From positions 1 through 50,842 of the IMG/VR virus record IMGVR_UViG_3300029977_000003: 50,842 nucleotides of DNA, one strand, 5' to 3'. Below the pieces are notes generated by a model. It did not search any database. It was not told where the DNA came from and worked only from the letters and a program-made list of their open reading frames with translations. Positions within the stretch are counted from its first letter, which is position 1, and every line of letters begins with the position of its first letter. Source of the DNA: a virus. This document shows positions 16,631-45,802 of the stretch, one piece after another. Position numbers and translations under genes: made by a program.

Positions 16631-16691
16631 GCCCAGGTGCGGGATTCGAACCCGCTGCCGGGTGCGGCGGCCTCGGCCTCCTTGCCTGGGC
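16631..16691 (-). ncRNA. tRNA-like element, 61 nt, incomplete
   Basis: On the minus strand a 7-bp GCCCAGG/CCTGGGC acceptor-like stem encloses a perfect T-arm (GCGGG-TTCGAAT-CCCGC). Only 29 nt lie between the 5' acceptor strand and the T-arm, about 12 fewer than a normal D-arm plus anticodon arm. The only anticodon-like hairpin (GCCG-CCGCACC-CGGC) lacks U33, and no CCA is encoded. It may be a decayed tRNA, a tRNA-like RNA, or the tRNA end of an attachment site. It is not a functional canonical tRNA as seen. Confidence 0.5.
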
Positions 16692-16704
16692 TTCGAAAGG
16701 AGGT

Positions 16705-16806
16705 AGGACGGGCGGGAATACCCGCCAGCCTGATCTTAGATCAAAGTCCTGAAGTCGGCAAACCGAACAGCCAAGTTTTGCGAGAGCAAGGTCTGGCTAC
16801 CACCAG
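16705..16806. ncRNA. cluster of stem-loops including a three-way junction
   Basis: AGGAC (16705-16709) pairs with GTCCT (16746-16750) around two perfect hairpins: GGCGGG-AATA-CCCGCC (16711-16726) and TGATC-TTA-GATCA (16731-16743). TCGG-CAAA-CCGA, TTGC-GAGA-GCAA (a GNRA loop) and CTGG-N6-CCAG follow in series up to the -35 box at 16809. This density of short stems next to a tRNA-like element suggests a structured RNA. The strand is unknown. Confidence 0.4.
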
Positions 16807-16808
16807 GA

Positions 16809-16836
16809 TTGACAAGACTCGCAATTTCTGTAGACT
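16809..16836 (+). promoter_or_regulatory. promoter of epimerase gene
   Basis: Consensus TTGACA (16809-16814), 16-bp spacer, TAGACT (16831-16836), then ten bases to ATG 16847 with no ribosome site. Leaderless expression is likely. Confidence 0.65.
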
Positions 16837-16846
16837 TTTCAGTGCT

Positions 16847-17887
16847 ATGAAATGCGCGCTTATAGCAGGTACACGGCCGGAGGTAATTAAGCTGGCTCCA
16901 TTAGCGAAAGCTATGGAGCGCTGGAAAATCCCTTATGGATGGGTTCTAGTACGACAACATCAAGAGCTCCTTGATATTGCGAAGCATGACTTCGGCGTCT
17001 CGGGCCAAGAAATAAATCTTGACCTTGCAGAGTCTATGGCCCGAAAGCTTGGTTCTATGCTTCCAAAACTTGAGAATGCGCTCGCCGACTACAGTCATGT
17101 TGTTGTTCAGGGCGACACGCTAACGGCTTTTGCCGGAGCACTGGTTGGCTTTCTGTGCGAAAAGAAAGTCATTCACATTGAAGCTGGCGTGAGGTCACAT
17201 AACCTTTTCGAACCCTTTCCCGAAGAGCAGATTAGGATGTTCATAGACCGTGTTGCGTTCCTCCGTTTTGCGCCTACCAAGCACACTCTTCGGAATCTGA
17301 AAACTGAAGGTCTTTTATCGGGAACCATTTGCTCTTATGGCAATACTGTCTCGGATGCTCTCTTTTCTACTAAAGTCCCGGTAGTCGAGCTCCCCTTCCC
17401 AGAAGGATCGTACTTTCTTGTGTCCCTTCTTCGGAGAGAAAACTGGAGCATCATTCCAAAAGTCTATGAGATGCTGAGCAAGGAGAAAGACCGCCTCTTC
17501 ATTGTGGTAGTCCATCCTAACCACAGTCATGAGGCCTCGAAATTGACGGGTTCCCATATCGTAAAGATGGGCCCCTTACTTTACCCTTTCTTTATAGCGC
17601 TTCTTAGAAATGCAGCAGCGGTTATCACGGATTCTGGTGGAACCCAGGAAGAGGCCGCCCTACTAGGAGTCCCAGCGTTTATACTGAGACGAGCTATTGA
17701 TCGTCCAGAATCCATCGAAGCTGGCCAAGCGAAACAAGTAGCAGACTACGAAGAGCTCTTCAAGATCATCGATGAAAGCGACCTCAAAGAGATGGCAAAG
17801 CAGTCAATAGTTTACGGAGACGGACGGGTGAGCGAAAGAATAGCACTGCAATTGGCTAGAAAATTAGGCCTACTTAAAAGGCAATAA
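16847..17887 (+). CDS. UDP-N-acetylglucosamine 2-epimerase (non-hydrolysing type)
   Basis: 346 aa. It interconverts UDP-GlcNAc and UDP-ManNAc in the cytoplasm. The WecB/MnaA signature is clear: N-terminal 'IAGTRPEVIKLAPLAKAM', 'VVQGDTLTAFAGA', 'IHIEAGVRSHNLFEPFPEEQ', 'VVHPNH' and 'VITDSGGTQEEAALLGVPAF'. The frame is open upstream to 16637 but that part reads through the antisense of the tRNA-like element, so ATG 16847 at the promoter is preferred. It has its own promoter and ends in a hairpin at its stop codon. Together with two glycosyltransferases it points to phage-directed sugar modification. Confidence 0.9.
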   Translation: MKCALIAGTRPEVIKLAPLAKAMERWKIPYGWVLVRQHQELLDIAKHDFGVSGQEINLDLAESMARKLGSMLPKLENALADYSHVVVQGDTLTAFAGALVGFLCEKKVIHIEAGVRSHNLFEPFPEEQIRMFIDRVAFLRFAPTKHTLRNLKTEGLLSGTICSYGNTVSDALFSTKVPVVELPFPEGSYFLVSLLRRENWSIIPKVYEMLSKEKDRLFIVVVHPNHSHEASKLTGSHIVKMGPLLYPFFIALLRNAAAVITDSGGTQEEAALLGVPAFILRRAIDRPESIEAGQAKQVADYEELFKIIDESDLKEMAKQSIVYGDGRVSERIALQLARKLGLLKRQ

Positions 17888-25267: not shown

Positions 25268-26242
25268 TCAGCTCAATACATCATAGAGGATGTATCCAAG
25301 GTCTGGTGCCAGGAGCTTCTGGTCATAGGCCATTTCGCCCTCGTACCTAATGGCCTTACGGGTGGGAAGTTCGATTGTCGCGACGCCCACGTTATAACCA
25401 TTGTTATAGCCAGTCCAGGCGAAGATGTACCCGCCCGTAGGCACCATTAGGCCTGGCCGCTCCGGAGCGTATACAAGTAGGAGGTTATCAGGGAACATGT
25501 AGGTCGGGTTAAGAGCCGAGCCCTCCGGGCCAGTATCGTGAAGAGCTCGACCAACCAAGACCTCATCGACATCAAAGAGACGAGCGAGAAGTTCGGGTGT
25601 TACGAGGCCCTTTACATCCGGCGCGGTAGGCGCATAGACCAGCTGGGCCTGGATCTTGGGGTGCATGCGAAGAGCGTTATAGACCTTAACCGACATCACG
25701 ATTTTGTTGGGGGAGATTCCGGTGATGCTTTCGATGTATTCCCTTGCACTGAAGATATCAGCAATGGGATCCGAGTTTTCGTTGTCCCACTTTACGGTCG
25801 GAGAAGACCCGTTCCAGAAGTTTACGCCGAGGCTCTTCCCGTTGTGATCGAAGAACTTCTCGACCCAGGTCTTCTCGCGCAAGAGCAAGAGCTGGTACAT
25901 TACGGTCTCGACTACCTGACGCTCCAGGTTGGGGATATCCGAGTTCTTGAACGTAGCAAGGGGCACGTCCCAGTGGAAGGCATAAATGTCGCAGAAGTAG
26001 GGCTCGGTTCGAGCGATCGCAAAGCCAGACCCAGCAGACTCCGCACCAGGAGCGCGCTTCTGGGCTTTGATCCGAAGCCAGGCCTCTTTGTCAAAGACCA
26101 AAACGAGGTCGCTTTGTTTCTCTACGTTTACGACGGGGAAGACGCGATCGGCAATGAACTTCTTGGTATCCTGGATATAAGCGACCGCGATCTGGGTCAA
26201 CACCTGATCAAAGTGGACTTCCTGGGTTGTAGGCTGAGGCAT
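25268..26242 (-). CDS. major capsid protein (HK97 fold)
   Basis: 324 aa. Features of the GpE/HK97-type capsid family: N-terminal 'LTQIAVAYIQDTKKFIADRV', 'FPVVNVEKQSD', 'NLERQVVETVMYQLLLLREK', 'NKIVMSVKVYNALRMHPKI' and a C-terminal 'TRKAIRYEGEMAYDQKLLAP'. It forms the icosahedral shell. A decoration protein gene is immediately upstream, a scaffold before that, and a strong terminator follows. A TGAGGAGGTGAGAG ribosome site fits high expression. Confidence 0.9.
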   Translation of the reverse strand: MPQPTTQEVHFDQVLTQIAVAYIQDTKKFIADRVFPVVNVEKQSDLVLVFDKEAWLRIKAQKRAPGAESAGSGFAIARTEPYFCDIYAFHWDVPLATFKNSDIPNLERQVVETVMYQLLLLREKTWVEKFFDHNGKSLGVNFWNGSSPTVKWDNENSDPIADIFSAREYIESITGISPNKIVMSVKVYNALRMHPKIQAQLVYAPTAPDVKGLVTPELLARLFDVDEVLVGRALHDTGPEGSALNPTYMFPDNLLLVYAPERPGLMVPTGGYIFAWTGYNNGYNVGVATIELPTRKAIRYEGEMAYDQKLLAPDLGYILYDVLS

Positions 26243-26630: not shown

Positions 26631-27524
26631 TCACCCCCTAAGCTGGCGATAAAGATCCGGGTTCTTCGTAAGAACCATGACCCGCGCTGCCTCGATGGAC
26701 TTAGCCGCACCCTTTGCAAGGAGTTCCTGGGCTTGCTTCTCTACGATATCCCACGGCGACTCCTCGACCTGACCAGCAGACCCAAGCTCCTTGAACAAGG
26801 GGCTAGCGGATACCACAGCCTCAAGTTTCTTGAAGGCTTCCTCGAGGCGGGTATCACCAGACTTTTTCATAGTGAAGAGCAAGTCTGCGATCTCTGGCGC
26901 GATGGACATCAAGCTCGGAATCTGAGACTTCATAGTCTCGATATATTCCTTCTTCTCGCGGATCAACCGCTCCTCTTCGAGGGCTTTGCGGAGAGCCTCC
27001 AGCTCAGCCTGGGCCTTCTGCAGGGCTTCAAGCTCAGCCGAGGGCTTCTGAGCCTCTTCCGCCTTTTCGATGGACTCTTGCTTCACTTCAGCTACATTAG
27101 GCTCGGATTTTGCAGCTTCCTCAGCGGCTGTGTTGGTAGAGCAGGAGGTTTCCTGGGGAGCAGGATAGCCATAGGGCTTGGGATAAGAATACTGAGGATA
27201 AGCTCCCGGATGCTGGTAAGGATACGGGTACGGGTAAGGCTTTACTCCCTCAGGCAGCGGGTACCCTACGAGCTTCCCCAATGCGGCGATCACCACATCA
27301 GGGATCAATCCTTCCTCAAACAGCGGATACAGAATCTCCAAGGCCTTCTTGACCTGGTCTTGCTGATCCGCTGTAAGGCCCTTTGTCTTCTTCTCTTCCT
27401 CTTGGAGAGTCTCCGGCATCTCTCCCACCTCCTTGAGAAGTAAAAATCGACGGCGGTTGGCGGGACTGCCAACCGCATCGACCCGCGGCACAAAGAGATC
27501 TTCAAGGCGCGCTTTTGCCCGCAT
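26631..27524 (-). CDS. scaffold-like protein with Tyr/Pro linker
   Basis: 297 aa between protease and decoration genes. The N-terminus has 'DAVGSPANRRRFLLLK', a motif found in proteins following XkdF-type proteases (VD.GANR..F.LLK). A Tyr/Pro-rich stretch (residues ~98-125, repeated PYPY) then a long Glu/Ala/Lys coiled coil (residues ~155-205) and a helical C-terminus follow. Coiled coil and position fit a prohead scaffold, which the protease would cleave. The Tyr/Pro linker is unusual. Confidence 0.7.
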   Translation of the reverse strand: MRAKARLEDLFVPRVDAVGSPANRRRFLLLKEVGEMPETLQEEEKKTKGLTADQQDQVKKALEILYPLFEEGLIPDVVIAALGKLVGYPLPEGVKPYPYPYPYQHPGAYPQYSYPKPYGYPAPQETSCSTNTAAEEAAKSEPNVAEVKQESIEKAEEAQKPSAELEALQKAQAELEALRKALEEERLIREKKEYIETMKSQIPSLMSIAPEIADLLFTMKKSGDTRLEEAFKKLEAVVSASPLFKELGSAGQVEESPWDIVEKQAQELLAKGAAKSIEAARVMVLTKNPDLYRQLRG

Positions 27525-27552: not shown

Positions 27553-29379
27553 CTAGTCAAGGGATTCTTGTAGTTTGTGCCTGATCCCCAAGCCCTGAAT
27601 AGACCAACCCGTAAGTTCTCCATTCTTGATTTTCTCCCATACCTCCCGCTCGGGGATCCAAACTCCTAAAACCCACTCTCCTTCCCGGACCAAACTGTCG
27701 GGACGCGATGGATCATAATAGAAAGAAGTGCGCGCTATAAAAGATTCGACCGGGAATGCTAAGATCGGCTCACCTTGATGATTTATTCCTACTTGTCTAC
27801 CAAAAATCAAGTACCGATGTGCGGCCTTCTCCACCTCATCCGGACTTATTATGTCTCCCTGAGCGTCTGGCTCATGAGGCGAAAGTACCACACCATAAAC
27901 GATCTGTTTCTCCTCATTCTTCCCGACCGGAATGAAAGGAGTCCCTTTCAGTGCGGATGGCGTATCAGACCTTCTGACAATCACGATTGGCGAGTCTTCC
28001 GATTCCCAAAGGATAAGGTAGTATCCGGTGATTTCCCTTCCTTCCAGCTTAAGCCTTAATAAGCCCGGCTCTTCCTCAAGGACAGTGGCCTCTCCTTCGT
28101 CAATCAGCTCGATTCTTGATGGAGTCTCCTTTGTTGGATTCAGAAGAGTACCAGGTTCGGGCTCAAACACGCCAGTCTTGGTGTACAAGGCCCTGTAGTA
28201 ATCCTCATCAAGTTCCACGCCAGCTACTTCTTCTCTAAGACGGGGATCATTATCAAGAGAAAACACCATCTTAGGATCATTGAGAAGAAGGTAGTAAATT
28301 GTGGTCGAGGGCCCAAATCTGATTACAATCTGGCCACGAAATGTTTGCCGGAAAATCTTAAAACGTGGCTTCGCCTTCTCTTGCGGCTTAAAATTTCCTT
28401 CCTCATACCAGGCCACAAGCTCTTCCCGCATGGCTTTTCGCTTCTCTTCGTCCTTCTCCTCCCAAAATCTTAATTCTGGCGGAACCCTCTCGCGCAGCCA
28501 GGATGGCAGCGCTGCCACCCCCACGGGCGGAAGCCAGTCTTTCTCGACTGCGTCATCTGAAAGAACATAGGGAGTTGGATCGGGAGTCACGAATAGCCAA
28601 TACCCTGACTCTCGGGCGGTCTCCTCGGCTTCGCCCGGAGGCAAAACGATGGCTCCGGCTTTTGCAAGCTCTACGGCCTCCCTCATCGACTTCGCCCGTG
28701 CAACAAACCGGAAAACGACCTTAGGAGGGAAGAGCTCATTTCCTTCCAGGAAATACTCGAAAAAGTAGGGCTTCCTGGCACCTGGGACCCAATACCCCCT
28801 ATCAATCACCACGAAGACACCGGGGAAGGATCGCGTCGCGCCAACCGGTATGCGATCGACTTTCCATGAACCATCCTTAATGACCTGTTCTGCTTTCTTT
28901 GGATCCCAGCCTTCCCTCCTCAGCCTCTCTTGGACTTCCGTTGGCCACTCATCCCAGTACTCGATCACGGTTTTCGGCCAATCCGGAGGGAATTCTGTTC
29001 GCCCCTCGACCTCTAACCACTCAATTGGGATGAGCTGGGCTTTTCGTTCGGCATAAAGTGAGCCAGGTCGGATCACCGTTCGTTTCTCGCCACGAATCGT
29101 AGTTTTTACCTCGCGCGGGAAGATGTAGCCCGTGTCCAGGTCGAACTTCCATACCGATTGGTCTTTCGCAATCTTCCTTCCTTGCTCTAGCGTGACTACC
29201 GGAGTCTTAATCGCACCCTCCACCTGAGCTGAAACAGTCCATCCTTCAGCAACTGAGTTTCGTGCGAAACGAAAGTCGAGGTGAACGCTCATGCCACGAT
29301 AGTGAGCTTGGACTACAAAGCGCTTTGGAGTATTAGGATCCTCCGGATACTCAGTAGTGGGCCCAAGTTGCTTTTCCAT
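27553..29379 (-). CDS. LigD-type 3'-phosphoesterase / XkdF prohead protease fusion
   Basis: 608 aa. The C-terminal 120 residues are an XkdF-like serine protease: 'YGVVLSPHEPDAQGDIIS', His534 in GINHQGEP, 'EGEWVLGVWIPEREVWEKI' and Ser593 in TGWSIQG. It would mature the prohead. Residues ~18-225 resemble the 3'-phosphoesterase domain of bacterial LigD: 'FVVQAHYRGMSVHLDFRFA' with H26, H33, D35 and R37 matching the H-x6-H-x-D-x-R metal site (spacing one longer), then 'IPVG', 'GVFVVIDRGYW' and 'YFLEGNELFPPKVVFRFV'. A second degenerate copy may cover ~340-460 ('IELIDEGEAT', 'LRLKLEGREITGYYLILW'). Prohead proteases are normally 150-250 aa. The neighbouring gene encodes a DNA ligase. The start is supported by length only; the ribosome site is weak. 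Confidence 0.75.
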   Translation of the reverse strand: MEKQLGPTTEYPEDPNTPKRFVVQAHYRGMSVHLDFRFARNSVAEGWTVSAQVEGAIKTPVVTLEQGRKIAKDQSVWKFDLDTGYIFPREVKTTIRGEKRTVIRPGSLYAERKAQLIPIEWLEVEGRTEFPPDWPKTVIEYWDEWPTEVQERLRREGWDPKKAEQVIKDGSWKVDRIPVGATRSFPGVFVVIDRGYWVPGARKPYFFEYFLEGNELFPPKVVFRFVARAKSMREAVELAKAGAIVLPPGEAEETARESGYWLFVTPDPTPYVLSDDAVEKDWLPPVGVAALPSWLRERVPPELRFWEEKDEEKRKAMREELVAWYEEGNFKPQEKAKPRFKIFRQTFRGQIVIRFGPSTTIYYLLLNDPKMVFSLDNDPRLREEVAGVELDEDYYRALYTKTGVFEPEPGTLLNPTKETPSRIELIDEGEATVLEEEPGLLRLKLEGREITGYYLILWESEDSPIVIVRRSDTPSALKGTPFIPVGKNEEKQIVYGVVLSPHEPDAQGDIISPDEVEKAAHRYLIFGRQVGINHQGEPILAFPVESFIARTSFYYDPSRPDSLVREGEWVLGVWIPEREVWEKIKNGELTGWSIQGLGIRHKLQESLD

Positions 29380-29426: not shown

Positions 29427-32400
29427 TTATTTTTCGATATCAAGCAAAGAAGCGAACTCTTCCGGCGGCTCTTTCCTATGAGCGAAGAATGCAGCCTGAA
29501 TGGTTCCAATTCGGCTGCCGGGATCCTTTATGCCTACGGGAATCGGGTGCTGCCAAGATACATGGATTCCGCCCTTCTCATCTTTGAACGTGGTTATTTC
29601 CATGGGGGCTACTGTCAAGATGGTCCCAGGCTTGGGAGGCGAGGGGAACTTTATCGCATAAGAATTCCCAAATGCATACTCTCCCGGACCACGGTGTGGG
29701 ATTCCGAAGAACATTGTCCAAACTTTTGGATCGTCTAGACCCGTCCAGGCCTGCTTTTCTTCGTCCCAGTCCAGCTTTAGGTCCTTCTCGGTTAGCTTCT
29801 TCTTCGACTCGATCGGGACAATCTTTCCGGTTTTCTCGTCTAGCAGGCCTAGCCGACAGATATAGGTATCCGTCCATTCGAGATTTTTAAAGGCCTCTTC
29901 CTTTGTCCAAGTAGTTCCAGCTGGCCGAGGCTTGGGCATCCGACGATAGCCAAGAATTAGGCAATCAAGCTCAACTCGGTTCTTCAGTTTGATGACGGCT
30001 GTCCTAGCTTCCTGGGGATCGTACCTAAATGAGCCCAGTTTAGCCATCACTCCCTCGGTTGAGCGCCCTTTCTTGACTTGTCGGAACTCCTCTATTGCCT
30101 CGAGGAACGACTCTCTGTCTTTCACGATCTTGGTTTCGAAAACTTGGAGTATATAGCGCCCAAGCTTGATTGGCTTTGGAATAAGGTCCTGTAGGATCTT
30201 TAATCTCTCGGTGTATGGGAGCTGAGTTACATTCTTCCCATTCAGCCAAGCGATGTCGTGCACGAAGATCTTGATGTGGAAATCTTCTTTCGGCTCCTTC
30301 GCCGTCGCCATCCATGTCATTTGGGTCCTTGAAATCTGGTACTCATAACCCGGATCAAACTCAACAAACTCGCAGTCAAGGACGAATGATGGTGCAATCT
30401 TTTTCGCTAACCTCTCGATTCCAGGGAAATTATGGACTACATCGCTACCTTTCTCAGTAAATACATGGACTTTCTTGCCTCGGGAAAAGATGAAGCGTAG
30501 CCCATCGCCCTTAGGTTGCAGGACTATAACCTCGCCCTTCTCAACTGCCCGACGAGCCCACTTCTCCCATGCTAGTTCTGCTTCATGAGGGATGTAAAAC
30601 TCCCCAGCTACGTCGTAGTGCACAAAAGGTTTATCTGGATCTAACTTCTCGGGGTCCGTGATCAGCTTGGCCTTATACAGGAGTCTACGAGCCTCTTCGC
30701 CTTCCCGAACAACCCGTAGCTCGAAGGGAACCTTCCGTGCTACGAGCTCGTAGATGGGAAGGTAGTCCCAAGTGGGACCATTCGGGTCTAAGGAGAATTG
30801 CACGGGGAGGTTTACTTCGCTCTGAATGGCCCGCTGAATCTTGAGGAGAGCTCCGGGACTGGCATTCAGCCGAATGATTACGTCCACATCCCGGGGCGGA
30901 TGCTGACCATAAATCAAAGAGCCAGTAACCGACGCCCATTCGGGCTGTATCAAGATTTCATTGGGGAGTGCGCTCCATAGTGCAAAAAGGGCGTCTTTGA
31001 TGATCTCGGCTCGCTTCTTGTCCCATTCTCTAAGCTCTTCTTCCGAGGGAGGCTTGCTCTTAATATAGCCTCGCTTCTCAGCCTCGCGATAAGCCTCCCA
31101 ATAGGAAGAATGGTATTGCGGATCGGTTGGTTTTGGCGGGATAAGTGGGAAATAAATGGAACGAAGCGTATCGATGATCTTCCCAAAGTACCGCAGGACC
31201 AGGTCCAACGTCCAATCTCCCCATTTCTCTCCCGCCTTCAATCGTGGATAAGCAGAGTTTCCAAGGTATCTTGCATCAGCTAGCAATTGGCGCCATCTTT
31301 CGGCAGGATGCTCTAAATCATAATCAATGCCTGTCGCCATAAACTCTTCAAGATGGAGCTTAGCAAGCAGATTTATCTCCTGTCCTTCGTGGGTGAACTG
31401 GATATCTACTCCATGTTTCGCTCCGATTTCCTTAGCTAAGACGAGGGCCTCCTCTGGCGAGTCATAGTAAAACTCTCCAAAGTGGATTAGGTAGATCTTT
31501 GAAACGCCAGCCTTCTGTGCCCAAGAAGCTTCAGCAGCCCACGATGCATGGCCCCAAAGGTTGCCTTGGGCATCCCTCCGGGTGATGCCATCAGGGTGCG
31601 ATGCATCAAAAAATGCAAATGATGCTCCCTCCAGGCAGGCATCGCGATCGTCTCGAGATTCCCAGCCTAGGATGTCCGGGGCATAGACAAATGAGAACGA
31701 ATCTCCGTCTACTCTCAGCGCTGCAGCGGGAGCCCGGATCGAGTGAAGGACAGGATAAGGCGTGACTGAAATCCCATTAATCTTAGTCGGCTTTCGGAAA
31801 GGCATCTCGATTACATTGAAGCCAGCTTCCGCCAAGGCTTTATAGGCTGGCGGAGGCGCATAGATCACATCAGTTTTATCGATGGCTCCAATATGATCGG
31901 GATGAATATGAGTAATGACTACCACATCTGCCTTAACGCCGCGTGCAGAGCCCTTATCAAAACGTATCTTCTCGCCATTTACCTCAAGTAAGATGGAGGC
32001 ATTATTGCCTTCGCGATCGATGTTGCCTTTAACGCCGATAACCCTAATCCTCGCTTGGACGGATTTTTCGAGGAGCTCGACGTTAGGGAGCTCAACTTGC
32101 TCAATAAATGTTTGGACTCCAGGAGGAGTATCGAAGGCAATTGGGGCCGGATAAGGCCGAACGTCCTTCACGAAATACATGAAAAGTACATTTGCATCAG
32201 GCCACCATTTATCCAATTCCTCGGCGCTGACCCTATGGATGTTTATATAGTCTAGAACCTGGTCTCGTGGAATCGGAATAGGATCATGGAATTGCGCAAC
32301 GCCGAGAAGTTGCTGGTCTTCAATGATCGCGAGCCATTCCCCGGACATGTTAAAGCGCACCGATTTCAGGACGGCTTTCTTCTCCCCACGGATCAGCATG

Positions 32401-32462
32401 GTTCCGTGGGGTGGAACGAGGTAAAGCCCGCGGACAATCTCCGGAATCTCTCGATCCATCAT
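29427..32462 (-). CDS. ASCH-like / MBL-fold / nucleotidyltransferase / ATP-dependent DNA ligase fusion
   Basis: 1011 aa, at least three enzymatic domains. Residues ~10-110 look ASCH/PUA-like ('GTMLIRGEKKAVLKSVRF', 'LLGVAQFHDPIPI'). Residues ~135-370 are a metallo-beta-lactamase fold close to RNase Z/PhnP: THIHPDH at 184-190, H240, D263, H305, H327. Residues ~500-600 are a polymerase-beta-type nucleotidyltransferase: G514-S515 then D525-x-D527. Residues ~620-1000 are an ATP-dependent DNA ligase: motif I KGDGLR with Lys651, motif III 'VLDCEF', motif IV EGVMAK (803-808), motif V 'AVIKLKNRVELDCLILG', then an OB-like end. All key residues are present. It sits between portal and protease genes, overlapping the portal by four bases. 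It may process and join DNA ends. Confidence 0.8.
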   Translation of the reverse strand: MMDREIPEIVRGLYLVPPHGTMLIRGEKKAVLKSVRFNMSGEWLAIIEDQQLLGVAQFHDPIPIPRDQVLDYINIHRVSAEELDKWWPDANVLFMYFVKDVRPYPAPIAFDTPPGVQTFIEQVELPNVELLEKSVQARIRVIGVKGNIDREGNNASILLEVNGEKIRFDKGSARGVKADVVVITHIHPDHIGAIDKTDVIYAPPPAYKALAEAGFNVIEMPFRKPTKINGISVTPYPVLHSIRAPAAALRVDGDSFSFVYAPDILGWESRDDRDACLEGASFAFFDASHPDGITRRDAQGNLWGHASWAAEASWAQKAGVSKIYLIHFGEFYYDSPEEALVLAKEIGAKHGVDIQFTHEGQEINLLAKLHLEEFMATGIDYDLEHPAERWRQLLADARYLGNSAYPRLKAGEKWGDWTLDLVLRYFGKIIDTLRSIYFPLIPPKPTDPQYHSSYWEAYREAEKRGYIKSKPPSEEELREWDKKRAEIIKDALFALWSALPNEILIQPEWASVTGSLIYGQHPPRDVDVIIRLNASPGALLKIQRAIQSEVNLPVQFSLDPNGPTWDYLPIYELVARKVPFELRVVREGEEARRLLYKAKLITDPEKLDPDKPFVHYDVAGEFYIPHEAELAWEKWARRAVEKGEVIVLQPKGDGLRFIFSRGKKVHVFTEKGSDVVHNFPGIERLAKKIAPSFVLDCEFVEFDPGYEYQISRTQMTWMATAKEPKEDFHIKIFVHDIAWLNGKNVTQLPYTERLKILQDLIPKPIKLGRYILQVFETKIVKDRESFLEAIEEFRQVKKGRSTEGVMAKLGSFRYDPQEARTAVIKLKNRVELDCLILGYRRMPKPRPAGTTWTKEEAFKNLEWTDTYICRLGLLDEKTGKIVPIESKKKLTEKDLKLDWDEEKQAWTGLDDPKVWTMFFGIPHRGPGEYAFGNSYAIKFPSPPKPGTILTVAPMEITTFKDEKGGIHVSWQHPIPVGIKDPGSRIGTIQAAFFAHRKEPPEEFASLLDIEK

Positions 32463-33667
32463 GACCCTCCCAAGCCTACTAGCTCTCTTGTAAGTTTCGC
32501 AAGCGCGTTCTTCAAGTCCTCCGGAGCCTCGAGCTTCGCTACTGCGCCAATCAGGTCAACGAGTTCGTCAATCGTTGGCTTCCGCGGGAGCACTAGGCGA
32601 ATCTTTGGCGTTAACTTCGCATCTATTCCATTTAGACTAACGATCGTTCTTGCCACATCTCGCTGAAGCGCATTTGCAATCGCATCAAGACAAGTCTGAA
32701 TCCCAACTTCGAAGAGCGAACGCTTTTCCCGAGCTAGGGCATAAGAGCCGCGCGCTTCCATCCCGACCAAAATCAGATCAGCGAGAAGCGTATGGGCTAT
32801 CTCCTGATTATAGCGTTCAATAATATCAGAGGTTGAGAACTGTCTTCCGCCCGAAAGTGATAGTAACTTGAGATCAAAAAGAGGCTCGTTTGACCCCGCT
32901 GCTTTAGGCAGAATTAGGCCTTCCTCCTCGTCCCTTCGCAATTGTCTCATGAGCTCCCGAAGCTTTGCCATCTTCGCCTCATCTTTATACGTAGTCTGTG
33001 GCACGTATAGAATGGGAAGCCCAACCAAATCACGCTCCACTCCGATTCCTTCCAGGATCTGGAGGTGTTTCTTGAAGGTATACGGAACATAGGCGTTACG
33101 GAGGAGTGACCGGCCTGTAGGCGTATAGGAGTAACCCGGCGTTACGATGTGAAGTATCTTCCAGCGCGGAAGGAATACTTCTTCTCCGCTCAAAAGTCGC
33201 TGGTAGCATCCAAGTACATTTCCACGTGCATCAAATTCCCATCTTTCGATGGTCTCTGGCAGACGATAGGAAAGCTTTGCCAAAGAGACTCTTCCGTCCA
33301 TCGTTCTGTATACTTCTTCAAAAACAGAGAATCCGAATATTACGAAATTAGTAGCCTGGAATAGGAGCTCCGGACTCAGACTTGGCTCCAGCATCCTGAA
33401 GTCTTCGGAGACCATTTCTGCAGCTGTTTGAGCCTCCTTCGAATCATCGGCCGGCTCGATCACAAGATCAGCCTGCCCCATGAATTGTTTCATTGCGAAG
33501 ACGATGGCACCAATGGTGGGGTCGTTTTCGGCCATTTCCCGATACACCTTGAAGGCCTTACGACCCTGGAGATCCCGCAGAAACTCCTCGGAGACAATCC
33601 CGGCCCAGCGCTGGAGACCGGTCTCGCCAAACTCCCGTTCTATGTCTAGCTGTTTAACCACCCGCAT
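32459..33667 (-). CDS. portal protein (DUF935-like)
   Basis: 402 aa. 'FKVYREMAENDPTIGAIVFAMKQF', in two parts, 'FGFSVFEEVYR', 'RWKILHIVTPGYSYTPTGRS', 'LRNAYVPYTFKKH' and 'IIERYNQEIAHTLLADLILVG' match DUF935/Mu gp29-type portals. Twelve copies form the ring through which DNA enters and leaves the capsid. It overlaps the small gene upstream by 14 bases and the ligase fusion downstream by four. Confidence 0.9.
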   Translation of the reverse strand: MRVVKQLDIEREFGETGLQRWAGIVSEEFLRDLQGRKAFKVYREMAENDPTIGAIVFAMKQFMGQADLVIEPADDSKEAQTAAEMVSEDFRMLEPSLSPELLFQATNFVIFGFSVFEEVYRTMDGRVSLAKLSYRLPETIERWEFDARGNVLGCYQRLLSGEEVFLPRWKILHIVTPGYSYTPTGRSLLRNAYVPYTFKKHLQILEGIGVERDLVGLPILYVPQTTYKDEAKMAKLRELMRQLRRDEEEGLILPKAAGSNEPLFDLKLLSLSGGRQFSTSDIIERYNQEIAHTLLADLILVGMEARGSYALAREKRSLFEVGIQTCLDAIANALQRDVARTIVSLNGIDAKLTPKIRLVLPRKPTIDELVDLIGAVAKLEAPEDLKNALAKLTRELVGLGGS

Positions 33668-33930: not shown

Positions 33931-34335
33931 ATGTCTACCCCATATTCGAGGGGCGCAAGAGCAGAACGCGAGCTGGCAAAGCTTTTGGCTGAAAAATTCT
34001 CGATTCGTGCCTTTCGAGTGGCGGGGTCTCATGAGGCTGACCTCGTGATCTTGGGCATTCCCATTGAGGTTAAAAAGCGAAAAACCATCCCGGAAACAGT
34101 CAAGCCGGCCTTCTTTGCCCTCCTTTCGGATGCGTCTGTGGTAGCAGGCCCCCTCGACCTTTTCTTTTCTCAGGCTGATCCCATGAGAGTGTCTAAGATA
34201 ATAACGCCTGCCCTAATCATGCTTATCCCACCCCACGGGATTCTCGCTCTTCGTGCACCAATGCTAGGCTTTGCTTTATTCATGAAGTGGGAGGACTTTG
34301 TCAAGCTACGATCTATCCTCGGCCGCTTGAAATAA
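33931..34335 (+). CDS. Hjc-like Holliday junction resolvase
   Basis: 134 aa. 'YSRGARAERELAKLLAEKF' followed by 'RVAGSHEADLVILGIPIEVKKRK' is the archaeal Hjc-type PD-(D/E)XK core: Glu in RAERE, Asp in EADLV, and E-x-K in IEVKK. It would cut four-way junctions before packaging or during recombination. It precedes the terminase genes, fitting debranching before packaging. No ribosome site; leaderless start likely. Confidence 0.8.
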   Translation: MSTPYSRGARAERELAKLLAEKFSIRAFRVAGSHEADLVILGIPIEVKKRKTIPETVKPAFFALLSDASVVAGPLDLFFSQADPMRVSKIITPALIMLIPPHGILALRAPMLGFALFMKWEDFVKLRSILGRLK

Positions 34336-36816: not shown

Positions 36817-36845
36817 TTGAAGGAGGGGCGCTTCTCGGATAAACT
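36817..36845 (+). promoter_or_regulatory. promoter of primase-helicase gene
   Basis: TTGAAG (36817-36822), 17-bp spacer, TAAACT (36840-36845), then GGGAAGG and ATG 36860. Confidence 0.6.
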
Positions 36846-36859
36846 TGGGAAGGCGCGCC

Positions 36860-38767
36860 ATGCAGAATGAGCTTCTCGATACTATTCTATCCAGGCTGAG
36901 CGGGGTTAAGCAACTCGGACCCGATCGCTGGATGGCAAAGTGTCCCGCCCATCATGATGAACACCCATCCCTCTCAATAAAAGCCGTAGAAGGAAGGGTT
37001 CTTCTTCATTGCTTTGCGGGATGTAAGTACCAAGACATTCTACGGGCGCTAGGCCTTGAGTCCACGAAAACTGAGGAAATCGAGGACATCTATGAATATC
37101 GCGATATGGATAATCGTCCTCTCTTCCGGAAGATCCGCTTCTCGGGGAAACGGTTTGTCATAGAGCATGTCCATGAGAACTATTGGGTCCGAGGCCAAGG
37201 CTCAGCGCCTAACGTCCTTTACCGCCTTCCCGAGGTGAAAAACGCCCAGAAAGTCTACATCGTGGAGGGCGAGAAGGATGTCGAGAATCTTGTCCGCTTC
37301 GGTCTAGTTGCCACTACTAATCCGCATGGAGCGAATGAGCCCGATCTCCGCCCTTACGTTGAGCACCTGAAGGGGAAGGACATCGTAATCATTCCCGACC
37401 AGGATAAAGCCGGACTTGAATTAGCCAGACGGTGGACCGAACTCCTCTTTCCAGTCGCGAAGAGTCTGAAAGTCATTTACCTTCCCCATCCCGCAAAAGA
37501 TGTCTCAGATTTCCTAGCCTCCCATTCGATTGATGAGCTCCTCGCGCTGGAGGAAGTAACAACTTCTTTCTCTGCAGCTGACATCCAAGAGGAGTTCTCG
37601 GAGGCCCTGATCAGATTGAAGTTGAACAAAATCGAACTCATTCTAACCCGAGGTAAGCAGGATGCGAAGGGTTACGATTTCTGGCGCTATCATGCCATCA
37701 CCCCCTCCGGATCGACCTCGAGCCTAGTAGCCCTTAATAACCTCACAGCTCGCAGAAAAGAAGCCGCCCAGCTCGAAGATTATTTACCGACTGGGCTTTG
37801 GGGATATCTCCTTGAGAGAGCAGCAAGCGGCGTTTCAAAACCGAAAGCGCAGGTATTTTGTCTTGCCGAGGCCAAGGCCGAAGCCCCTTCTTTCCTTCTT
37901 AAGCCTTTTATCATCGCGGATGGACTAAATATCATATTCGGCCCCGGCGGGACCATGAAGAGCCTCTTTGCAATAATTCTTTCGAAATGCATCACGAATA
38001 ACTGGCTTCCTCCTGGAACCCACGATCTCGAGCTCTACAAAACTGGCAATGTACTTTTCATTGATTGGGAAGATGAGCTCGGACCATTTCTTGATCGCGT
38101 AAGGAAAGTGGGCCTCGTCCTCGACAGAGTGTTTTACGAAAAAGCAACACGACCTTTTGTAGAGATGATCCCCGAAATCAAGAAGGAGGTTGACGAACGC
38201 GATATAGCTCTGATTGTTATAGACTCAATCGGGCCAGCCCTGGGAAGTGGGAATCCATTCTCTTTGGAGGCGGCTACTGCATTCATTGCCGCGACAAAGT
38301 CCCTGGGAAGACCAGTGCTTGCCATAGGACATCCGCCGAAACACATGAGCGAAACAGTATATGGGTCGGTGTTTTTCGAGAACCTTTCAAGGAATATTTT
38401 TCGAGTCGAGGCTTTTCTGCCGGGCAACCCCTTTTCCATTATGGAGCTCGTAAATAAGAAGTCTTCCTATTTTGACGGATCTAATTTGGCTTATAAAGTA
38501 TCCATTGGATTCTTTGGGACTTCCATCGAGGCCAAGATAGACCGAATCTCAGTGGCGCCAAAGGCGCTCGCGCCAGCTATTTTGTTCCTGCTCAAGACTC
38601 ATGGAAAGATGACCTTCCGCGAGCTAAAGAACGAGCTACCCACTACTCCGGAAAACGTGATCCGGAGAGAACTGGGGCACCTGAAAGAGCTTGGCCAGAT
38701 CGAAATTGATGACGAGGGGAAGTTTATGCTCTCCGAAAAAGCCTTAGACGACGAAGTCCCATTCTGA
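36860..38767 (+). CDS. primase-helicase (CHC2, TOPRIM, RepA-like ATPase)
   Basis: 635 aa. N-terminal CHC2 zinc finger (C..H in 'KCPAHHDEHPSLSI', then 'LLHCFAGC'), TOPRIM near residues 135-200 ('VYIVEGEKD', 'IIPDQDKAGLELARRW'), and a RecA-fold helicase from ~350: Walker A 'GPGGTMKS', 'VLFIDWED', 'LIVIDSIG', 'VLAIGHPPKH'. A small winged helix follows near 580-620. The last residues, DDEVPF, resemble an SSB-type acidic tip. It should prime and unwind phage DNA. An upstream TTG (36845) is in frame, but ATG 36860 fits the promoter. It converges on and overlaps a leftward gene by 24 bases. Confidence 0.9.
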   Translation: MQNELLDTILSRLSGVKQLGPDRWMAKCPAHHDEHPSLSIKAVEGRVLLHCFAGCKYQDILRALGLESTKTEEIEDIYEYRDMDNRPLFRKIRFSGKRFVIEHVHENYWVRGQGSAPNVLYRLPEVKNAQKVYIVEGEKDVENLVRFGLVATTNPHGANEPDLRPYVEHLKGKDIVIIPDQDKAGLELARRWTELLFPVAKSLKVIYLPHPAKDVSDFLASHSIDELLALEEVTTSFSAADIQEEFSEALIRLKLNKIELILTRGKQDAKGYDFWRYHAITPSGSTSSLVALNNLTARRKEAAQLEDYLPTGLWGYLLERAASGVSKPKAQVFCLAEAKAEAPSFLLKPFIIADGLNIIFGPGGTMKSLFAIILSKCITNNWLPPGTHDLELYKTGNVLFIDWEDELGPFLDRVRKVGLVLDRVFYEKATRPFVEMIPEIKKEVDERDIALIVIDSIGPALGSGNPFSLEAATAFIAATKSLGRPVLAIGHPPKHMSETVYGSVFFENLSRNIFRVEAFLPGNPFSIMELVNKKSSYFDGSNLAYKVSIGFFGTSIEAKIDRISVAPKALAPAILFLLKTHGKMTFRELKNELPTTPENVIRRELGHLKELGQIEIDDEGKFMLSEKALDDEVPF

Positions 38768-43093: not shown

Positions 43094-43385
43094 ATTCATC
43101 CACATCCGAGCCTCGAAAGAAGAAGCCCTCCAGCTCTTCGAAGCCCTAAACCAGGGATCCAAGCGCACTTGGGGAGGGTTCCCTCTCGCCACTTTCTGGA
43201 GGGACAACCAGACTCACATTTCCTTCCACTGGATTCCCCTCGGGAAAACAGGAAACATCCTCCTCGCCTTTTCGCCCACCCTAGAAAGGGAGATCATGCA
43301 GTTTGCCCAAGGGAAGAAACAGGAAAGTCCCGAGAAGAGCCTGCAGGAATTAGAGACCCTTCCGCTCCTCGGAAAGGAGGAATAA
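43074..43385 (+). CDS. hypothetical protein before thyX
   Basis: 103 aa. 'FIHIRASKEEALQLFEALNQ', 'GGFPLATFWRDNQTHISFHW', 'GNILLAFSPTLEREIMQFA'. Alpha/beta, possibly a small ACT- or ferredoxin-like fold. No family recognised. Its stop overlaps the thyX start (TAATG). Confidence 0.6.
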   Translation: MLESSCKFIHIRASKEEALQLFEALNQGSKRTWGGFPLATFWRDNQTHISFHWIPLGKTGNILLAFSPTLEREIMQFAQGKKQESPEKSLQELETLPLLGKEE

Positions 43386-43990
43386 TGAAAGTTGAGCTCT
43401 GGGAAATAACCCGTGTTCCGGAAATTTTTATTGTGCGATGTGCACGAGTTAGCCGCGGGAAATCTGGAAGGGATGAGCTGATACTCCTTGATGATGCACG
43501 AGACTTCATAAGAAAGCTCATCAGAAAGGGGCATGAATCGGTTCTAGAACATGCCTGGGCCACTTTCTACATCGATGGGATCTCCAGGGTTTGCCTTGCC
43601 CAACTTACCCGCCACCGCATAGCTTCCTACACGGTCGAGTCCCAAAGGTTTGTGACGCCCAAGGAAACGTTCGTGATCCCGCCTTCTTTTCTGAAACCCG
43701 ATGATCCTAGCGTAAAAGCTATGGTGGAGGCCTATTTGGAGACTTCGAAAGTTGTCTTCGAAAACTTACTTGCCTCGGGCATCCCGAAAGAAGATGCCCG
43801 TTTCATGCTTCCGCAAGCGATCACTACCTCCCTTGTCATGACCGCGAATTTCCGAGAGTGGAGGCATATTCTAAAACTCCGAACCGCCCCGGATGCTCAA
43901 TGGGAGATCCGCACCTTGTGCACGGAGATCGGTAGAATCCTTATGGAACACGCTCCAAGCGTGTTCCAGGACATCATGGAGGGAAAATGA
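43385..43990 (+). CDS. thyX: FAD-dependent thymidylate synthase
   Basis: 201 aa. It methylates dUMP to dTMP using FAD, NADPH and methylene-tetrahydrofolate. The ThyX motif RHR-x3-S-x5-QR is present as RHRIASYTVESQR. 'GHESVLEHAWATFYIDGISR', 'YLPQ'-like 'DARFMLPQAITTSLVMTANF' and 'REWRHILKLRTAPDAQWEIR' complete the family pattern. Site AAAGGAGGAAT. It overlaps dCTP deaminase by four bases, forming a dTMP-supply pair. Confidence 0.95.
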   Translation: MKVELWEITRVPEIFIVRCARVSRGKSGRDELILLDDARDFIRKLIRKGHESVLEHAWATFYIDGISRVCLAQLTRHRIASYTVESQRFVTPKETFVIPPSFLKPDDPSVKAMVEAYLETSKVVFENLLASGIPKEDARFMLPQAITTSLVMTANFREWRHILKLRTAPDAQWEIRTLCTEIGRILMEHAPSVFQDIMEGK

Positions 43991-44782: not shown

Positions 44783-45802
44783 TTGGAATTGAAAATCGCC
44801 ATAGTAACAAGAAACGCTATACACGGAGGAGTAGAAAGCCTCGTTGCTCTTCACCAGGAATATTTCCCAGCTGATGTTTTCGTGGCTGGAGGAATTAATC
44901 AGCCCAAAACCTGCCCATTTTCTTACACTTACATAGATGCCAAGAATGGGAAGAAAGCTCATGAAGACCTCGCACTCCTCTTAAGAGATTATGATGTGGT
45001 TGAGTACCATTGGCCTCCGCCTTGGGCCGTCCAGGCCATAGCTTCAACGAAGAAGCCCTGTGTGGAAGTTGTGCATCGAACTGATGCCTCCGAGTGCGAT
45101 AAAACCGTCCCGACCCTGATCATAACCCACTCCCATTATCTCGCTGATTTCCTCGAAAAGACTTATGGCCGAAACGCGATCGTCATCCCAAATGCGATCG
45201 AAGTGGATAAGTTTCCAGAGAAAAGCAGAGGGGAATTCGTGGGCGCAATCACTTCCTATTCCAGGATCAAAGGAATAGACCTCTTCTTAAAAGCCTGGAA
45301 AGGAGTGCAACAACTCTTTCCCGAAGTTCCCGTCCGGTTCTATGGTGCTGGACCAGACCTTCCCCTATTTAAGAAAATGGTTTCTGATTTAGGCTTGAAG
45401 AATGTGGAACTCCTCGGCCCAGTAGCCCACCCAGAAAACTACATCACCGAGTTCAAGCTTTTTGTTGTGCCATCAAGGGTCGAAGGCTTTCCTACGACCA
45501 TTTTGGAGGCTCTAGCCTGTAACATCCCCGTACTAGCTTCAGCTTTGCCGGGAATTCTTGAGTTCAAGGAACTTTCCGAAAAGCGCGGCTTTTCTCTTCC
45601 GCTCTTCTTATTCAATCCGGAAGACATCAATGATCTAAGGGGAAAACTAATCGAGCTTCTAAGTTCATCTCCGCATTCCCTAAATGGACGCATTTATGTC
45701 TCTCGGTACCATAACGCAAAAGATCATTGCCATGCATACCTTGAAGTACTTCGTCAAGCTTTTATGAAGATTGAACTGGAGCGTTTGGATAGAATCTTTT
45801 GA
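44783..45802 (+). CDS. glycosyltransferase, GT4-like
   Basis: 339 aa from TTG 44783 (TTG 44789 alternative). N-terminal 'LKIAIVTRNAIHGGVESLVA' with the GG-V-E acceptor loop, 'VVEYHWPPPWAVQAI', 'IVIPNAIEVDKFPE', 'YSRIKGIDLFLKAWKGV', and the GT4 donor site 'VVPSRVEGFPTTILEALACN' (E-x7-E). GT-B fold, retaining enzyme expected. Unlike 845-1885 it sits with nucleotide metabolism genes, so DNA-base or host-surface sugar transfer are both possible. A terminator-like structure follows directly. Confidence 0.85.
   Translation: MELKIAIVTRNAIHGGVESLVALHQEYFPADVFVAGGINQPKTCPFSYTYIDAKNGKKAHEDLALLLRDYDVVEYHWPPPWAVQAIASTKKPCVEVVHRTDASECDKTVPTLIITHSHYLADFLEKTYGRNAIVIPNAIEVDKFPEKSRGEFVGAITSYSRIKGIDLFLKAWKGVQQLFPEVPVRFYGAGPDLPLFKKMVSDLGLKNVELLGPVAHPENYITEFKLFVVPSRVEGFPTTILEALACNIPVLASALPGILEFKELSEKRGFSLPLFLFNPEDINDLRGKLIELLSSSPHSLNGRIYVSRYHNAKDHCHAYLEVLRQAFMKIELERLDRIF

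Follow-up and report, generated by a model that had tools for sequence, protein, structure and literature searches.

The window analysed here, the whole of a 50,842-nucleotide stretch that is a linear IMG/VR virus record, encodes a 1011-aa protein from a family, so far unremarked, of large multi-enzyme proteins of uncultivated archaeal and bacterial viruses. Our preferred reading, to which we assign a probability slightly below one half (about 0.46), is that this open reading frame (ORF) encodes half of a modular, LigD-like and Ku-less viral machine for healing and sealing DNA ends, made with the head and probably borne in the virion. A ligase and a LigD-type phosphoesterase (PE) are encoded beside a prohead protease and head genes, and it is this association that suggests an end-healing machine destined for the virion. 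The relevant features of the window are as follows.

29427..32462, minus strand: multi-enzyme ORF, 1011 aa (ASCH-MBL-helical-NTase-ligase), whose ATG at 32462 shares bases with the stop codon of the portal gene
32088..32429, minus strand: ASCH/PUA-like module, aa 12-125, by family profile
31428..32048, minus strand: metallo-beta-lactamase (MBL)-fold module, RNase Z/PhnP-like, aa 139-345, by Pfam and profile
30987..31376, minus strand: helical module, aa 363-492, all-helical in the model, between the MBL and the nucleotidyltransferase
30603..30980, minus strand: minimal nucleotidyltransferase (NTase) of the Pol-beta superfamily, aa 495-620, motif G514-S515...D525-V-D527
29883..30542, minus strand: nucleotidyl-transfer domain of an ATP-dependent DNA ligase, aa 641-860, by Pfam and family profile
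29430..29882, minus strand: putative extension at the C-terminus of the ligase (aa 861-1011), placed by alignments A4 and A7
27553..29379, minus strand: partner gene, 608 aa, LigD phosphoesterase-like module and XkdF protease, directly downstream of the 1011-aa ORF
28690..29358, minus strand: PE-a, LigD 3'-phosphoesterase-like half (Q24, H26, H33, D35, R37; Foldseek)
27964..28368, minus strand: PE-b, the second of the PE-like halves, lacking the conserved active-site H and D in the window
27580..27921, minus strand: XkdF-type (Peptidase_S78_2) prohead protease domain, Pfam E 4.5e-27
32459..33667, minus strand: portal protein (Mu gp29-like), Pfam Portal_Mu E 8e-32, phrog_113 E 5e-61, directly upstream
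26631..27524, minus strand: next gene, putative scaffold, with homologues downstream of the block in 16 of 51 loci
25268..26242, minus strand: major head protein, phrog_1005 E 2e-76

The 1011-aa ORF is a real gene and no chance reading frame. Two relatives share 93% identity with it, and comparison with one of these (L002) gives a dN/dS of 0.036, the values for individual domains being 0.035 (ASCH), 0.030 (MBL), 0.040 (helical), 0.028 (NTase), 0.033 (ligase) and 0.047 (C-terminus). Since dN/dS is below 0.05 in each domain, the whole ORF is under strong purifying selection. An earlier note on this DNA had described a single 1011-aa frame at 29427-32462, which exists as described, although its minus strand went unstated. 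The four domains named there form an incomplete inventory that overlooks the helical module at 363-492, the putative C-terminal ligase extension at 861-1011 and the downstream phosphoesterase-XkdF gene.

The ligase assignment made in that note, with Lys651 and motifs III-V, is borne out. Pfam DNA_ligase_A_M (PF01068) matches aa 641-827 at E 1.9e-18, and K651 (motif I), E698, E803-G804 (motif IV) and K825/K827 (motif V) are all intact. The motif I lysine is kept in 43 of 45 family ligases. The family profile (A7) finds an archaeal DNA ligase, 4eq5, as its best match (E 2.5e-26) and human DNA ligase 1 at about 1e-18, and NCBIfam groups the window ligase with ATP-dependent ligases that include the NHEJ and LigD types. 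Beyond the core, aa 861-1011 align, with an insertion, at the OB-fold position of other family members (alignments A4 and A7). In one locus, L017 (3853-8769, aa about 1206-1407), glutamate stands in place of the motif I lysine (EPEWNG); this ligase is probably dead, judging from its sequence, and the remainder of the protein is retained. In three related records the ligase core is divided between two abutting ORFs (L037, 5335-7083 and 7080-9266; L038, 4992-6776 and 6789-8969; L039, as L037), the second of which opens with the rest of the ligase and continues with the NTase and PE, an arrangement conserved in all three.

The NTase had been proposed from a GS...DxD motif at 514-527. This motif is intact, with G514, D525 and D527 invariant in 50 of 50 family members, but the window protein alone has no Pfam match to an NTase; some family members weakly match NTP_transf_2 and the pol-beta palm. 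The third carboxylate is Glu in the window (at YELVA), Asp in many members and a basic residue in some. When the helical-NTase segment was modelled (pLDDT 75), the best PDB folds found by Foldseek for the NTase were MNT structures 8xeo and 8xeh (probability 0.98 and 0.97), at an E of about 0.3 and over ~60 columns only. Family profiles, motif conservation and the model support the identification. The module is similar in fold to minimal NTases, the MNT antitoxin among them, enzymes that use other substrates; the nucleotide addition to ends proposed in the earlier note is thus at most a putative activity of the window NTase. The helical module that precedes it is 45-58% identical to its counterparts in four distant loci (L004, L019, L066 and L081).

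For the MBL module, Pfam Lactamase_B_2 matches aa 176-328 at E 1.2e-13, and the family profile (A11) is nearest to the RNase Z/PhnP class, matching RNase Z and similar enzymes at E 1e-12. The metal ligands are present, namely H185, H187, D189 and H190 of the HxHxDH motif together with H240, D263, H305 and H327, and HxHxDH, H305 and H327 are conserved. The motif named in the earlier note lies at 185-190, and the D186A variant suggested there was misnumbered: position 186 holds Ile, the aspartate of the MBL module being D189. Going by enzyme class only, the module may be a nuclease. At the N-terminus, the ASCH-like domain claimed previously gains some support from the family profile (A8), which matches TTHA0113 (PDB 2dp9/1wk2) at E 1.6e-7, although the window protein has no Pfam ASCH match. 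This ASCH/PUA-like domain probably binds nucleic acid. Two or three tandem ASCH-like modules are found per giant protein in L065 (4148-9925), L079 (4797-11009) and L044 (5775-11168).

The first 475 residues of the 608-aa partner protein are LigD 3'-phosphoesterase-like, in two tandem halves, and XkdF forms its C-terminus. The 608-aa protein alone matches the NCBIfam LigD phosphoesterase weakly (E 0.006); PF13298 matches seven of 16 relatives, and the PE family profile matches 3p43 (E 5e-8) and 3p4h (E 8e-7). The seven top PDB matches returned by Foldseek for the PE model (pLDDT 86) are all LigD-type PE, with probability 1.00. Equivalents of Gln40, His42, His48, Asp50 and Arg52 are kept in PE-a and are almost invariant across the family, H33 and D35 being retained in 52 of 52. 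The positions of His84 and Tyr88, each of which is essential in P. aeruginosa LigD (PMC8656161), are mostly occupied across the family by Gln/Glu and Trp respectively, and because these residues are replaced, phosphoesterase activity of the window PE is uncertain. The earlier proposal of a complete end-processing enzyme pointed in the right direction as regards a multi-enzyme protein, and is strengthened by the downstream PE, but the set is incomplete in one chain, the PE lying in the next gene. In L019 the PE module is itself divided over two overlapping ORFs (5965-7119 and 7011-7463).

The family was collected by scanning viral sequences with the PE module, for which smaller alignments were substituted for a 16-member alignment that was too divergent as a query, and it comprised 51 loci after duplicate removal. 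PE is present in 51 of 51 by construction, nearly all loci having been picked through it; the other counts are independent of that choice and amount to 50 for NTase, 45 for ligase, 38 for ASCH, 29 for XkdF, 14 for MBL (missing in 37) and five for the helical module. NTase, ligase and PE occur together in 45 of 51 loci, in 32 as a single ORF, and all five of ASCH, MBL, NTase, ligase and PE are found in 13. Module order varies, with splits over genes as well as fusions into polypeptides of up to 2070 aa: nine proteins of 1411-2070 aa follow the order ASCH-NT-PE-LIG-XkdF, five the order NT-LIG-PE and four MBL-ASCH-NT-LIG-PE, further orders occur (a 1020-aa NT-LIG-PE-XkdF protein in L034, for instance), and in L019 and the window the enzyme modules are spread over separate genes. 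XkdF is fused to enzyme modules in 17 of the 51 loci, a direct fusion being absent from the other 34. The four-part order of the window, which the earlier note did not match to any described phage, does recur, since L048 encodes ASCH-MBL-NTase-ligase-PE in one ORF, that is, the window order plus PE.

A tblastn search with the whole ORF against 50,697 phage records gave no match, and an NTase-ligase alignment, used to scan viral sequences, recovered nothing beyond the two near-identical relatives. The sole carrier among the 50,697 records is the archaeal virus ANMV-1, which was reached through the downstream gene only. Named contigs with the family belong to MAGs of Aenigmatarchaeota, Archaeoglobales, Thermoprotei and Dehalococcoidia. 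One of these, the 'Archaeoglobales' MAG contig L030, matches IMG/VR virus contigs L057 and L058 at 95% identity or more, and its host assignment by binning appears plausible. The family is large and linked both to archaea, among them ANME, Archaeoglobales, Aenigmatarchaeota and Thermoprotei, and to Dehalococcoidia, and it is nearly invisible in isolate collections.

Across the family, portal, terminase, minor head and head-maturation ORFs are found upstream of the enzyme block, and head-maturation proteases and major head proteins downstream. Portals were too diverse for a homology walk and were sought by PHROG searches; at least 29 of 41 records could be assigned a portal (phrog_12 in 24, phrog_2662 in one more, together with the window, ANMV-1, L019 and L048), and the portal lies upstream of the ligase on the same strand in 13 of 13 records with both located by search. 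The window also encodes a ThyX thymidylate synthase (43169-43990), a UDP-GlcNAc 2-epimerase (16637-17887), two GT-B glycosyltransferases (824-1885 and 44783-45802), a Toprim-type primase fused to a RecA-like AAA domain (36845-38767) and a small Hjc/RusA-like endonuclease adjoining the terminase (33931-34335). A late-operon place next to portal and terminase would also suit a general viral DNA ligase with accessory domains, acting inside the cell in a packaging-coupled role, such as the sealing of concatemer nicks before packaging through the portal, instead of being carried in the virion. The majority of loci, being unfused to XkdF, are in keeping with this; furthermore, where a PF01068 ligase was found (24 of 27 records, one of them of 156 kb) it was the sole one in its record, and for that reason it may simply be replicative. 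This is a serious rival but the less probable reading, since a replicative ligase needs no LigD-type PE, no NTase and no prohead-protease fusion of the kind seen in 17 loci.

A close known parallel to the window pair is found in LigD of bacterial and archaeal NHEJ, which likewise combines an ATP-dependent ligase with the LigD-type 3'-phosphoesterase fold. The viral family differs in having neither AEP polymerase nor Ku, a minimal NTase replacing POL, in the replacement of PE His84 and Tyr88, and in its linkage to head genes; since the polymerase, Ku and part of the PE active site are absent, we place it outside LigD. A Ku-dependent NHEJ system was rejected, as Ku (PF02735) was absent from 51 records in a search that detected its positive control, records that may be fragments and whose hosts could supply Ku. 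A full LigD was rejected likewise, the LigD AEP polymerase (PF21686) being absent from 47 records, possibly fragments, with positive controls detected. In ANMV-1, AJP62006 (KP703175) is like the window an NTase-ligase-PE protein, in this case a single 866-aa chain encoded right after the portal gene, to which the 1011-aa and 608-aa proteins align collinearly at 23% and 31% identity; unlike the window, it yielded no match for an ASCH, MBL, helical or XkdF domain. It is annotated merely as 'ATP-dependent DNA ligase', and the ANMV-1 discovery paper leaves the ligase unmentioned. Directly after this gene (L005, 5868-9368) lies a 1166-aa cysteine-rich repeat protein with weak EB-module/Dickkopf-like matches, the C-terminus of which resembles, by eye, a MuF motif.

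LigD-type PE acts on 3'-ribonucleotides (PMC8656161), phage RNA repair pairs NTases with RNA ligases (PMC7824862), and these precedents favour a role in the repair or processing of RNA against host RNases, in which the ASCH/PUA domain would bind RNA, MBL and NTase would process 3' ends, and ligase and PE would act on ribonucleotide ends. The ASCH/PUA-like fold, and RNase Z as the closest MBL class, would accord with such a role. It is made distinctly improbable by the fit of the ligase profile to archaeal and human DNA ligases, by the failure of the window proteins to match any RNA-ligase family in Pfam or NCBIfam, and by the presence of MBL in only 14 of 51 loci.

Phage polyvalent proteins carry many enzyme domains per polypeptide, are encoded beside virion genes and are predicted to be packaged and injected (PMC5512222). 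The window family similarly has several catalytic domains per chain, encoded with virion genes, and no architecture with LigD, ASCH or a DNA ligase is mentioned in the text of that survey. An injected polyvalent counter-defence effector, whose NTase and MBL would target host proteins or nucleotide signals while ligase and PE mended nuclease-damaged viral DNA, draws on this resemblance, on MNT antitoxins as the nearest relatives of the NTase and on the reach of the MBL profile to phage Apyc1 (E 1e-5), but has little probability in our view, as no defence-specific signature was found, RNase Z-class scores lie far above Apyc1, and the common core consists of NTase, ligase and PE, with MBL outside it. 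An extra domain on a head maturation protease is also seen in other XkdF fusions (phrog_1530, annotated DNA methyltransferase) and in Nudix fused to a capsid serine peptidase (PMC9503650), whereas the partners in the viral family are DNA end-joining modules. Such precedents for packaged and injected multi-domain or protease-fused proteins (PMC5512222, PMC9503650, PMC5694885) favour the preferred reading. The parts are known; for the viral multi-enzyme architecture, with its permuted combination, Ku-less LigD-like core with minimal NTase and prohead-protease fusion, no description was found among the open-access papers searched, a set without preprints.

Support for a machine that heals and seals ends and is made with the head comes from the pairing of ligase core and LigD-type PE, which in LigD carry out sealing and healing, respectively. 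The 1011-aa protein would supply the ATP-dependent ligase, minimal NTase, RNase Z-class metallo-hydrolase and ASCH/PUA-like domain, and the downstream gene a LigD-type 3'-end phosphoesterase joined to XkdF; related viruses have these modules in a single polypeptide ending in the protease. The enzymes would enter the procapsid along with the protease, be freed by it during head maturation and pass into the cell with the viral DNA, where, independently of Ku, they would clean up 3' termini and close nicks, breaks or cohesive ends in the incoming genome. General phage biology points to sealing the incoming linear genome, or mending breaks, as the likely task. The sequences themselves show the domains, the gene neighbourhood, the joint occurrence of the modules across the family, the conserved catalytic residues and the purifying selection; from these we infer virion packaging, proteolytic release, ejection, a DNA rather than RNA substrate and the purpose of circularisation or repair. 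Against this reading stand the replaced His84 and Tyr88 of PE, the variable third carboxylate of the NTase, the lost lysine of L017, the 34 of 51 loci without direct XkdF fusion, a possible replicative role of the sole ligase, and the absence of Ku from the records searched. More tentative still, and open to greater doubt, is the broader proposal that widespread archaeal and bacterial tailed viruses carry in the virion a Ku-independent, LigD-like end-joining machine, made as or with a prohead-protease polyprotein, cut free as the head matures, ejected together with the genome, possibly pre-adenylylated, and healing and sealing the viral chromosome at entry.

If the preferred reading is true, these viruses would need neither host ligase nor the recruitment of host NHEJ for circularising or mending their DNA on entry, and a new link would be drawn between the proteolysis of head maturation and genome repair. 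They would also be a natural source of a LigD-like enzyme that needs no Ku, with a nucleotidyltransferase substituting for the polymerase.
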